This document shows positions 6,690-53,779 of a stretch of DNA of 64,000 bases, one piece after another (the stretch's first letter is position 1; the number at the start of each line of letters is the position of its first letter). The notes under the pieces are model-generated. The model did no database searches. It saw nothing but the letters and a program-made list of their open reading frames with translations, and was not told the DNA's origin. The stretch covers positions 7,005,001-7,069,000 of the forward strand of contig NC_009445.1 of NCBI RefSeq assembly GCF_000026145.1, in the 5' to 3' direction. This DNA is from Bradyrhizobium sp. ORS 278 (GTDB lineage: Bacteria; Pseudomonadota; Alphaproteobacteria; Rhizobiales; Xanthobacteraceae). The position numbers and the translations under genes are program-made.

Positions 6690-6768
6690 GCGACGCAAAT
6701 CCCCCGCATCGTCTCTGCGCGCAGCGGCGTAGGCCTTGCGCGCGGAGACGGCAACTTACAGTTTGGTC

Positions 6769-7371
6769 ATGCCAAATGAGATGACCTCGGACGTAATCGA
6801 TTCGACGCGCGAGCGGCGCAATCATCGCCTCCATTGGCACAAGCCCGAGGAGACCGCGCGCGTGAAGGAGGTCGACGGCTGGCTGCACACCGGCGATCAG
6901 GCCCGCATCGACCACGGGCGCATCACCATCACCGGCCGGATCAAGGACATCCTGGTCACCTCGACCGGCGAGAAGATTGCACCCGCCGATCTCGAAACGG
7001 CGATCCTGACCGACCCTTTGTTCGAGCAGGCCATCGTGATCGGCGAGAACCGGCCGTTCCTCGCCGCGATCGTCGTGCTCAATCCCAAGGGCTGGGCCGA
7101 GCAGCAGGCGCGCCTCGCCGCCCACGGCCAGCGCGGCAGCGAGGCCGAAGCCGCCTCCCTGCTCCGCCACATCGCCCGCGCCGTGAAGGCCTATCCGTCC
7201 TACGCCACGCCGAAGGCGGTGCATTGGACCCTGGAGCCGTGGACCATCCAGGCCGGCCTGATCACGCCCACCCTGAAGAACAAGCGCCCGGCGATCGAAC
7301 GGACCTTCGCGAAGGAGATCGAAGCGATCTACGCGAAGCGCCCGGCGGCCTCACCACACGCGACGCCGTAG
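6769..7371 (+). pseudogene. Truncated long-chain acyl-CoA synthetase (C-terminal remnant)
   Basis: The 200-codon frame matches only the C-terminal third of an AMP-forming acyl-CoA synthetase. It has GWLHTGDQARID (hinge region), ITGRIKDILVTSTGEK (the GRxKD region), DPLFEQAIVIGENRPFL, and the tail ITPTLKNKR with the catalytic-lysine context. Homology begins near base 6835. The first about 22 residues do not resemble the family, and the large N-terminal adenylation domain (P-loop and AMP motif) is absent upstream in every frame. Full enzymes are about 600 residues. The stop codon lies at the edge of the palindromic repeat at 7367, and the missing 5' part suggests a deletion. A translated stand-alone domain cannot be excluded but is unlikely to be active. 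Confidence 0.8.
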
Positions 7372-7483
7372 GGTGGGCAAAGAGGCGCACGTGGCAACGC
7401 CGCGGGCGCATCGTGCCCCCCGTTTTCCCGGTCGCAACGGTGGGCACGCGCCGCCTTGCGGCGTCGCTTTGCCCACCCTACGG
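7367..7483. repeat. Palindromic dispersed repeat, family F
   Basis: The arms are CGTAGGGTGGGCAAAG (7367-7382) and CTTTGCCCACCCTACGG (7467-7483), perfectly complementary over 16 bases. An inner inverted pair lies around GCGCATCGTGCCC. The stop codon of the acyl-CoA synthetase remnant lies inside the left arm. Confidence 0.85.
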
Positions 7484-7576
7484 CAACGCACCTCCAAAGA
7501 TCGACGACTTCCGTGAAAAATAAATATCTTTCATTTTTTCGGAAATCATGATTATCTCCAACTCATCCCGGCCCGC

Positions 7577-7945
7577 GAGAGGGGCGCTTCGCGATCGTCA
7601 CGAGACGTGGGGCCGGAGATGCGGTGGCCGTGAGCGTGCTGCAGCGGGCGTGATGCCCGACGACGAACAGTGCCTTGCGGACGTGAAGACGCGTGGTCCT
7701 GGCGCCCCGAAGCTGGCGCCAAGTCCTCGGGTGATGATCCCGAGGGCGACGGTGGCTAAACAGCCGGACACCGGGGAGAGCGCGCCATAAGCGTGAAAAC
7801 CATCGCGCGGGGAATGCCGGGTGTCCTCGGCTGAACCTGTGGTGACTGCCGCCTGCTTTTTTTGCTGCAGGCGGGCCATGGGTGCGGCCAGCGCCCGGCA
7901 TTCTCCGCGCCCTCTCCTCGTTCGAGGGCGGAACGACCGGCAAGC
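7577..7945 (+). ncRNA. Large structured repeat element, copy 1 (candidate RNA)
   Basis: About 370 bases without protein-like frames but with nested hairpins. Hairpin A is 7700-7706 with 7715-7721 (8-base loop CCGAAGCT). Hairpin B is 7725-7731 with 7739-7745. A 17-bp helix D pairs 7805-7821 with 7894-7910 (one G-U). Hairpin C is 7849-7856 with 7867-7874, looped by a T run. Hairpin E pairs 7910-7914 with 7924-7928. The same architecture is found, diverged but compensated, on the minus strand at 28825-29204. Orientation is assigned from that comparison and from the poly-T loop. Transcription is inferred, not seen. Confidence 0.6.
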
Positions 7946-8068
7946 CTCGGACGCATCGGCGCCGCGAGAGGGCGATGACACGTGTCCCGACGATCACTCC
8001 TCCTGGATCGCCCCTCCCCTGCCGTTTCTGTCCTCGCGGACGTTCGGGAGCGCTTCCCCCACATTCCG

Positions 8069-22949: not shown

Positions 22950-23039
22950 GGCGGCTATGCGAGCCTATATAGGTTTCTTTTACCGGTTATCCGATGGCTG
23001 GCTTGACGGAAAGGCCAGGGGAGACTAAGAGCACGACTT

Positions 23040-23098
23040 ATCCCGTGGTGATTTGAGCCGGCCGGCTTGCAGCCACGTTAAATAAGTCGCTAAACAGG
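23040..23098 (+). ncRNA. SAM-II riboswitch aptamer
   Basis: Binds S-adenosylmethionine. The sequence matches the SAM-II (metA) motif: CGTGGTGATTTGAGCCGGCC, then GGCTTGCAGCCACG, then TTAAATAAGTCGCTAAA. P1 is CGTGG/CCACG and the 3' AAGTCGCTAAA forms the pseudoknot. It lies about 95 bases upstream of metZ, the usual target in Rhizobiales. Confidence 0.95.
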
Positions 23099-23151
23099 CC
23101 GGGGACGATTGTGATCCCGGCCGTGAGGAGTTTTCCCAGGCCGGTTTTTTT
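23097..23151 (+). terminator. Attenuator with mutually exclusive hairpins after the SAM-II aptamer
   Basis: CCGGCC (23117-23122) can pair with GGCCGG (23139-23144), followed by seven T, giving an intrinsic terminator. The same CCGGCC is also the 3' arm of GGCCGGGGA...TCCCGGCC (23098-23122), so only one hairpin can form. SAM binding upstream would plausibly switch between them. Confidence 0.75.
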
Positions 23152-28721: not shown

Positions 28722-28824
28722 CTGTGGGTGTCAAGCCAGCATACGTCACCCCCACGCACGCGGATGAACTGAGAGTTCGCGATCACGCCGAGCCTCATCG
28801 TTCTCGCCGCGCATTCCGCGCCCG

Positions 28825-29204
28825 AGCTTTATTCGTTCGTCCGCCCTCGTCAGAGTGAGGGCGCAGGGAAGGCCAGGCCTCGGCTGAGGCCTGCGGCCCG
28901 CCTGCGAGAAAAAATGCAGGCGGCAGGTACCACAGGTTCAGCCGGATGGACCCGGCCCTCCCTGCGCGATCGGTTTTAACGGCTGCTTCGCGTTCTCCCT
29001 GGTGCGCCGGGCTGTCTGGCCACCATACCGCGACAATGCGCTGAAGCGCATTGCGCGGGTGATATCAGCATCGGGATATCAGGACCGCGCGACTTGACCG
29101 TGCGTGCACCGCCGTTCGTCCGCGCAGGAGACCCACGCTGCGTCGACACACGCCCATCGCATCCCACTGCCAACGTCTCGTGACGGTCGCGACACGCCCC
29201 TCAT
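28825..29204 (-). ncRNA. Large structured repeat element, copy 2 (candidate RNA)
   Basis: Read on the minus strand it parallels the plus-strand element at 7577-7945. Hairpin A pairs 29081-29075 with 29066-29060 around loop CCGATGCT. Hairpin B pairs 29053-29046 with 29041-29034. The 17-bp helix D pairs 28967-28951 with 28877-28861 (two G-U). Hairpin C pairs 28923-28916 with 28905-28898, and hairpin E uses GAGGG at 28847-28843. Stem sequences differ from copy 1 but remain paired, while loops are conserved. There is no protein-like frame across it. The gap 28441-29608 otherwise holds only repeats. Confidence 0.6.
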
Positions 29205-29379
29205 GCGGCAGCAGGGACGCGCGGAAATCTGCCAGTGATTTGCCCGACGGCACAAGCGATTTTTGAGTCCGACGGAGCAGTGCGACGGGCAATCGAGAGA
29301 GCGCGACGACGGCTCGTCCGCGAACTAACAGCCCTAGATTTTTCGCATGCTCGGCCCCGGCGCAGTGCGAATGGAGTGC

Positions 29380-53659: not shown

Positions 53660-53765
53660 CTGAGGTCTCCCGGGTTTTTATCCCGCCGTGCACCAGGGCT
53701 CTCCCCTGGCGGCTGCTCTCGGACCAGCGTTCTCGCGATGAGAACCGGAACCCTAGCTGCCAACT
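53660..53765 (-). ncRNA. Guanidine-I riboswitch (ykkC class)
   Basis: The minus strand carries the conserved blocks of the guanidine-I aptamer in order: GCTAGGGTTCCG, CTGGTCCGAGAG, and a 3' CACGGCGGGATAAAA followed by CCCGGGAGA. The variable stems TTCTC/GAGAA and CAGGGG/CCCTGG separate them. Guanidine binding turns genes on. It lies between a sigma-54 promoter and the binding-protein gene. Confidence 0.95.
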
Positions 53766-53779
53766 CTGATGTCGATGTG

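Follow-up and report, generated by a model that had tools for sequence, protein, structure and literature searches.

Oriented copies of a predicted structured RNA gene and the one-sided order around them in Bradyrhizobium sp. ORS 278

Bradyrhizobium sp. ORS 278 is listed as a photosynthetic strain (NC_009445; Table 1 of PMC3899966). Its chromosome is a single replicon of 7,456,587 bp, of which positions 7005001-7069000, a stretch of 64,000 nucleotides referred to here as the window, were analysed. The window holds two convergent copies of a structured element, 21.1 kb apart (Table 1). A preliminary description had placed two colinear copies here and, upon re-reading, both were located at these positions. 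It had taken the element to be structured and ~370 nt long. The first part stands but the length does not, as the body of copy 1 extends over ~407 nt and the terminal hairpin had been cut off. Over 121 copies in the ORS278 genome, the body measures 382-478 nt, with a median of 409. A 211-aa open reading frame (ORF; 6736-7371, + strand) adjoins copy 1 and encodes an AMP-binding enzyme C-terminal domain (PF23562). It is perhaps a fragment of a larger gene and lies on the side that is non-syntenic with the SSBR45G locus L255.

Table 1. Positions of the predicted features within the window
Feature	Position	Strand	Remarks
Promoter-like block, copy 1	7511-7563	+	Conserved in the alignment of 121 copies; A-rich start
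CTTTC, possible -35	7528-7532	+	Within the promoter-like block
AAATCA	7543-7548	+	Within the promoter-like block
Possible -10	~7551-7557	+	Within the promoter-like block
Predicted RNA gene body, copy 1	7564-7970	+	407 nt; from the alignment of 121 copies
Hairpin A	7700-7721	+	Stem 7700-7706/7715-7721, loop CCGAAGCT
Long-range helix	7805-7821 with 7894-7910	+	Encloses an inner stem and hairpin C
Hairpin C	7849-7874	+	Stem 7849-7856/7867-7874 around a T run
Terminal hairpin	~7945-7968	+	Outside the ~370-nt boundary of the preliminary description
Predicted RNA gene body, copy 2	28801-29219	-	419 nt; 155.5 bits (covariance model)
Upstream module, copy 2	29236-29292	-	TTGCCCGTCG ... CGTCGGGCAAATCA; one of several module types

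Folding of the two copies was compared with dinucleotide shuffles and gave z scores of -4.0 (copy 1) and -4.8 (copy 2), versus -1.7 for the antisense strand of copy 1. RNAalifold on 31 copies returned 111 consensus pairs, 47 of them with double changes. In this structure 96.6% of cells pair, as against 38.5-44.6% when partners are slid by 1-3 columns, and none of 500 shuffles reached any of five structure measures. The stem of hairpin A reads TGGCGCC/GGCGCCA in copy 1 and TGATATC/GATATCA in copy 2; as previously noted, four pairs are changed and all are kept. Among the 31 copies this hairpin (helix 9) is paired in 100% of cells, with double changes in four of six pairs. The 17-bp long-range helix is present in both copies, with one G-U pair in copy 1 and, by reading, two in copy 2. 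It is the sole inverted repeat of at least 12 nt in 7400-8060, where the scan scored it at 94% complementarity with its one G-U counted as a mismatch. In the 31-copy structure (helix 13) it comprises 14 consensus pairs, two with double changes, and 100% of its cells are paired. The stem of hairpin C (helix 16) is likewise kept around its T run, with 100% of cells paired and double changes in two of eight pairs. The terminal hairpin (helix 17) is 94.4% paired and shows double changes in five of eight pairs. No T run follows it on the 3' side in copy 1, and a scan for terminator-like sites at this copy found a single one at 7839-7852 and none at the 3' end.

The structure was then read across all 121 copies. 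Standard pairs occupy 95.4% of 12,617 cells, and G-U accounts for 11.0% and A-C for 1.0%; this excess of 11 to 1 indicates that the strand that folds is the sense strand. When each copy is compared with its nearest relative, 1493 pair changes are kept (584 of them double) versus 377 broken, and divergence is 12% at paired and 23% at unpaired positions. Because kinship among the sequences can mislead shuffle and slide controls, a tree-based null was built, in which the changes inferred for each column on a tree of the 121 copies are re-dealt over its branches (a home-made, R-scape-like procedure rather than R-scape itself). Against this null, the covariation of 19 of the 106 pairs rises above the family-wise threshold, versus 0 or 1 in slid structures, and 57 of the 106 reach p<=0.05, where 5.3 are expected. 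Covariation thus goes beyond phylogeny, and the selection on RNA structure that had been suggested from two copies is borne out in the ORS278 genome by the 121 copies, the tree-based null and the ratio of G-U to A-C. When the test was tightened to take in all 83,028 column pairs, nine pairs remained significant. Five of them belong to the predicted structure, and pairs 154-167 and 155-166 (alignment A1) of hairpin A are significant in this test. The other four lie outside helices and involve columns 130, 195, 199, 210 and 222 of the 411-column body; they possibly reflect a tertiary contact or linked changes within subfamilies.

These observations strongly support a predicted sense RNA fold that is maintained by selection, copy by copy, and the element is almost certainly, on comparative sequence grounds, a family of genes for a structured RNA of ~410 nt. 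Three ORFs run across the element and none matches Pfam at E 0.01, so that the protein-coding match that would have spoken against an RNA was not found; G-U covariation together with variable length likewise indicates an RNA rather than a protein-coding gene. It was also considered whether the family might be a repeat or cruciform that acts at the level of DNA and has no RNA function. The family is indeed repetitive and hairpin-rich, but tolerance of G-U is strand-specific, the folding advantage belongs to the sense strand and a promoter-like block is present on one side, which makes this reading very improbable. The statement that no described RNA class covers the element agrees with Rfam, no family of which matches it. 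In the window, Rfam 15 reports only guanidine-I, SAM_alpha and one tRNA, all elsewhere than the element, and in 7500-8020 (E up to 5, both strands) only MIR1437 at 30 and 18 bits, with a cut-off of 168. The guanidine-I riboswitch (53665-53767, - strand) and SAM_alpha (23035-23114, + strand) both score above the Rfam gathering score.

The 60 nt that precede the start contain AAATCA in 58 of the 121 copies, a near variant in 90 and TTGAC in 8. Several types of upstream module are found among the 121 copies, 25 of which have the GGGCAAATCA core ahead of the body. The two halves of the TTGCCCGTCG ... CGTCGGGCAAATCA module, carried by 25 of the 121 copies, are inverted with respect to each other, and it may be an operator. 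A strict scan for E. coli sigma-70 sites found none at copy 1, and we therefore infer the promoter from conservation; the element would be transcribed from this promoter-like block.

Copies were counted with a covariance model built on the 3' half, with 168 positions and 43 pairs. In ORS278, where the best 150 of 6254 first-look candidates were scored, the search returned 121 full-length sense copies at 121-202 bits. Below 48 bits there were only 28 antisense shadow rows at full-length copies; these, and one antisense row in the search of other genomes, are left out of all counts. A DNA search of the same genome scored 40 of 180 candidates, and 40 of 40 matched. As a check on completeness, an exact pattern gave 106 matches, and among the 100 listed, 98 fall inside the 121 copies. 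The site at 6132026, outside the 121, has no model match at E 1, and the remaining one, at 2649441, adjoins a known copy. Identity to the nearest copy has a median of 0.81 and a maximum of 0.955, and the median over all pairs is 0.70. By heuristic gene calls, 114 of the 121 copies overlap no predicted ORF, and the four strand combinations of the neighbouring genes occur 32, 29, 28 and 27 times in the 116 copies with both neighbours called. No neighbour strand is preferred, which argues against a cis-regulatory leader or riboswitch. The element is, as predicted from these data, a stand-alone and mostly intergenic gene with 121 intact copies.

Similar sequences had been said to be dispersed in Bradyrhizobium genomes, and searches of ORS278 and related genomes agree. 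Within the taxonomic family, with strict filters and the best 23 candidates per genome scored, matches were obtained in 43 of 119 genomes and 18 of 47 genera, ORS278 included. A class-wide sample of 288 other genomes gave none among the best nine candidates of each, a setting at which weak matches would be lost. Among the loci listed from a genome scan (at least 120), 119 are from Bradyrhizobium and one from an alphaproteobacterial bin. Ten Bradyrhizobium genomes of one to three contigs yielded 1 to 46 rows each, B. aeschynomenes 83002 has 129 copies, and BTAi1 has 68 rows, of which 63 score above 105 bits and the 5 under 105 bits look decayed.

Such a distribution could be expected of a selfish, non-autonomous mobile RNA gene whose machinery lies elsewhere and whose one-sided target immunity blocks insertion over ~40-50 kb on its 5' side. 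The copies are dispersed over the genome, their number ranges from 1 to 129 among the Bradyrhizobium genomes searched with models, and transposase-like ORFs were seen by eye near copies at 2 of 28 loci, both in other genera (L077, L078). Insertion alone, however, would not maintain a fold at ~20% divergence from the nearest copy, and even the closest two copies are 95.5% identical. Terminal inverted repeats of at least 12 nt are absent from 7400-8060, no neighbour protein was seen repeatedly when 28 loci of other genomes were read by eye, and neither viral contigs (exact pattern) nor phage and plasmid collections (one 491-bp query) gave a match. A mobile RNA gene of this kind seems rather unlikely, although the spacing of the copies, described below, bears on it as well.

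REP elements resemble the element in being high-copy, intergenic and palindromic and in belonging to the same genus. Those of Bradyrhizobium include Br-REP1 and Br-REP2 (PMC5082802), and the GTAG/CGTC REPs of ORS278 are given as short palindromes of 20-40 bp (PMC3733652); both the REP palindromes of ORS278 and the Br-REPs have already been described (PMC5082802, PMC4842269, PMC3899966 and PMC3733652). Whereas these REPs are short palindromes, the element is a unit of ~410 nt with its own promoter-like block, and neither the Br-REP1 consensus (up to 3 mismatches) nor the 15-nt Br-REP2 core (up to 2) matches in the 64-kb window. HEARO/omega RNA is a large structured RNA with many dispersed copies and an adjacent IscB-type gene. 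The element is likewise large, structured and dispersed in many copies; it has no Rfam match, and the neighbour ORFs of 28 loci, read by eye, showed no recurrent family. The BjrC RNAs are non-coding RNAs of Bradyrhizobium. They and the B. japonicum USDA 110 small RNAs BjsR1-BjsR10 (PMC5082802) are akin to the element as non-coding RNAs of the genus, some of them multi-copy. BjsR1-BjsR10 are reported to reach up to four copies versus more than 100 for the element, and they are set apart here by copy number.

The copies are distributed along the ORS278 chromosome in a polar manner. A neighbour lies within 25 kb on the 3' side of 35 of the 121 copies, compared with 1 of 121 on the 5' side. Gaps are even (CV 0.53 versus 0.99 +- 0.09 for random placement; 0 of 20,000 random sets as even) and depend on orientation, with means of 31.8 kb for 32 convergent, 78.7 kb for 32 divergent and ~69 kb for 57 tandem gaps. 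Convergent gaps are shorter than divergent ones (Mann-Whitney p 8e-9), and this holds in all four quarters of the chromosome. When all pairs are considered, 4 copies are found within 30 kb on the 5' side versus ~59 expected, and the depletion reaches ~50 kb. On the 3' side, copies on the opposite strand do lie close by, and at 10-20 kb they outnumber expectation (22 versus 9.8).

The same asymmetry is seen in the two relatives with many copies. Pairs under 40 kb number 25 convergent, 7 tandem and 2 divergent in ORS278; 24, 10 and 3 in 83002; and 7, 2 and 0 among the intact copies of BTAi1. In 83002 (108 within-contig gaps), convergent gaps average 28.9 kb and divergent gaps 70.8 kb (p 7e-8); in BTAi1 the values are 42 and 190 kb for 68 rows, or 77 and 200 kb for the 63 above 105 bits. 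Both genomes share copy positions with ORS278 by descent and are not independent replicates. In ten other Bradyrhizobium genomes, with wrap-round gaps left out of the counts, 15 pairs lie under 40 kb, of which 10 are convergent, 5 tandem and none divergent (p 8e-4); genomes G005 and G009 together contribute 7 such pairs, 3 convergent and 4 tandem. Evenness is a separate matter. The gap CV is near random in G019 (1.05), G008 (0.84) and G021 (0.86), and among the first four other genomes tested even spacing is significant only in G015 (p 0.007). Even spacing as such is not general among Bradyrhizobium. The polar rule, by which a second copy is rare within ~30-50 kb on the 5' side in either orientation while 3'-3' neighbours are common at 10-40 kb, is very probably real. 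The support is strong within the photosynthetic clade, and the rule also has support in other genomes, where it is weaker.

Random filling of a chromosome with one soft exclusion of 40-50 kb on the 5' side only reproduces most of these values: convergent gaps of 34-36 kb, divergent gaps of 75-78 kb, tandem gaps of ~72 kb and a CV of 0.55-0.61. The simulation departs from the data in the number of tandem neighbours (42-47 versus 57 observed) and in the convergent minima (~1 kb versus 7.3 kb observed). That filling with exclusion fits the mean gaps is in keeping with a mobile RNA gene subject to target immunity, as is the finding that the 5'-side distance is alike in copies with and without the GGGCAAATCA module. 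Since identity is independent of distance, local hopping was rejected as an origin of the close convergent pairs.

Two further readings are touched by the spacing. The element may be an ordinary multi-copy regulatory or scaffold RNA that acts in trans, the spacing being a by-product of genome history. The several types of promoter module suggest different regulation of the copies, and Bradyrhizobium has known multi-copy small RNAs, for which up to four copies are reported (PMC5082802). More than 100 copies is far beyond four, though, and function in trans predicts no polar exclusion. Nor does genome history readily account for the gaps: repeat-mediated deletion or inversion would act in the same way on 3'-3' and 5'-5' pairs, yet these differ, and it was rejected as the cause of the spacing. 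The trans-acting reading is distinctly improbable.

Alternatively, the copies may be strongly transcribed, oriented genes that set domain borders or supercoiling, such that a second copy on the 5' side costs fitness. The nearest ideas are the nucleoid-associated naRNA4 of E. coli and the Caulobacter domain borders that lie at highly expressed genes. An even, oriented spacing and constraint on every copy would suit such a chromosome-organising RNA. On each chromosome arm, highly expressed genes tend to share one orientation, as do the 17 copies of G005 under 105 bits (L211-L227), the lowest-scoring of that genome, in 17 of 17 cases; these copies have their own common promoter block. The orientation of the ORS278 copies, however, ignores the arms (68 of 121 at best, against a random mean of 70), and simple twin-domain supercoiling would, by reasoning, penalise convergent copies, yet these are tolerated. 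A chromosome-organising role is unlikely, and like mobility with target immunity it leaves unexplained the one-sided turnover of the flanks.

This turnover was observed on comparison of orthologous copies. Among the loci of relatives listed (at least 120), 82 have a flank that matches the flank of an ORS278 copy and 38 have none; by reading of the table, 6 of the 82 are inverted or match on the other side. Of the orthologous pairs, 33 had 5' flanks of at least 1.3 kb and 3' flanks of at least 1.1 kb available, with either side more than 30% covered; they use 25 ORS278 copies, some up to four times. All 33 of these pairs have a syntenic 3' flank, and 14 have a syntenic 5' flank. Of the 19 that lack 5' synteny, 18 lose similarity 1-179 nt upstream of the start and one loses it within the body; L235 and L291, counted among the 14 5'-syntenic pairs, also show such a loss, at -65 and -63. 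The profile of flank end points took in 30 of the 33 pairs. Base composition is one-sided as well. For the 91 of 121 copies with long enough flanks, GC within ~1.5 kb is lower on the 5' than on the 3' side (p 8e-5), and it falls below 58% on the 5' side of 11 of the 91 loci and on the 3' side of none.

Synteny was followed over 20 kb upstream in ten ORS278/BTAi1 pairs. In nine of them it returns 0.4-10.8 kb further on, and in the tenth, a control, it runs unbroken from the element. Seven of these nine belong to the 19 pairs without 5' synteny and two lie outside that set. Given this return, a 45-kb island on the 5' side was rejected. Eight proteins from or near the 5' pockets were scanned, and six match Pfam: an addiction-module antitoxin (PF09720), a ParE toxin (PF05016), a DUF1902 protein, a KAP NTPase, an FkbM methyltransferase and an acyltransferase. 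No motif was found to be common to the far ends of the 5' pockets, and an empty-site comparison aimed at target-site duplications gave no clean empty site among 39 rows, many of them index artefacts. In G015, a more distant genome of which 30 of 35 copies were compared, ~8 of the 30 occupy, by reading, an orthologous site and share its orientation, and one has the opposite orientation. In this last case (L204 versus ORS278 L178), the element adjoins the same gene in opposite orientation.

Taken as a whole, the data are best explained by a constrained family of RNA genes that serve as oriented landmarks and whose action in cis makes their 5' side prone to recombination, a reading to which we assign a probability of roughly 0.4. 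The mechanism itself, a cis-acting RNA locus that renders its own 5' side recombination-prone, is put forward tentatively. Either the RNA itself or a complex that it forms with protein at its own gene would act in cis on the 5' side, which would become prone to recombination in the manner of a polar recombination hotspot. Accessory genes would be exchanged beside the promoter, and a second copy within 5' reach would be overwritten or not tolerated. The 3' side, not being acted on, would stay syntenic, and convergent copies could sit close together. Such an action would produce exclusion in either orientation, a break at the edge of the promoter and a quiet 3' side. The 5' pockets of 0.4-10.8 kb (nine pairs) are much smaller than the exclusion of 40-50 kb, so one process may not explain both. 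In its widest form, which we hold as a doubtful but possible proposal, chromosomes of this group would be partitioned by up to ~120 oriented RNA genes, each governing ~40-50 kb of its own 5' side, and the RNA would be a polar cis landmark deciding both the uptake of foreign DNA and the siting of further landmarks.

Several known systems share features with the element and its proposed recombination-prone 5' side. Chi is an oriented octamer, a recombination hotspot that acts on its 5' side; the element is also an oriented site, with a proposed action on the 5' side, but Chi is a short DNA octamer with a shorter range and the element an RNA gene. In the target immunity of Tn7 and Mu, a resident copy bars others from tens of kilobases on both sides. 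Copies of the element also exclude others over tens of kilobases, although on the 5' side, and no transposon ends were found. tRNA genes are integration sites of islands, with accessory DNA on one fixed side of the RNA gene, as in the element. Here, however, the accessory DNA is on the 5' side, and no integrase was recognised by eye in the lists of neighbours. We know of no bacterial RNA or repeat described with an end-dependent rule that reaches neighbours tens of kilobases away, and the portions of the open-access literature consulted contain no description matching the element family or the polar rule. Even without the rule, it is unusual for a genome to carry a large structured RNA in more than 100 copies, each under constraint of its own. 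If the rule reflects mechanism, it would offer a genetic handle on the sites of bacterial gene gain and on the subdivision of the chromosome in a soil bacterium amenable to laboratory work.

The idea of a guide RNA was also considered. An excess of copy-specific 12-mers was seen on the 5' flank (47 versus 13 +- 4.5, 91 loci), and it was rejected as evidence. The excess was attributed to the locus L173 (ORS278 6794047-6802247), because the strongest match by far is a truncated direct copy there. It lies ~2.2 kb upstream of a full copy and consists of the promoter and the first ~156 nt (279 bp, 93% identical), with lower-GC DNA in between. This locus may represent a snapshot of a 5' pocket gaining DNA.
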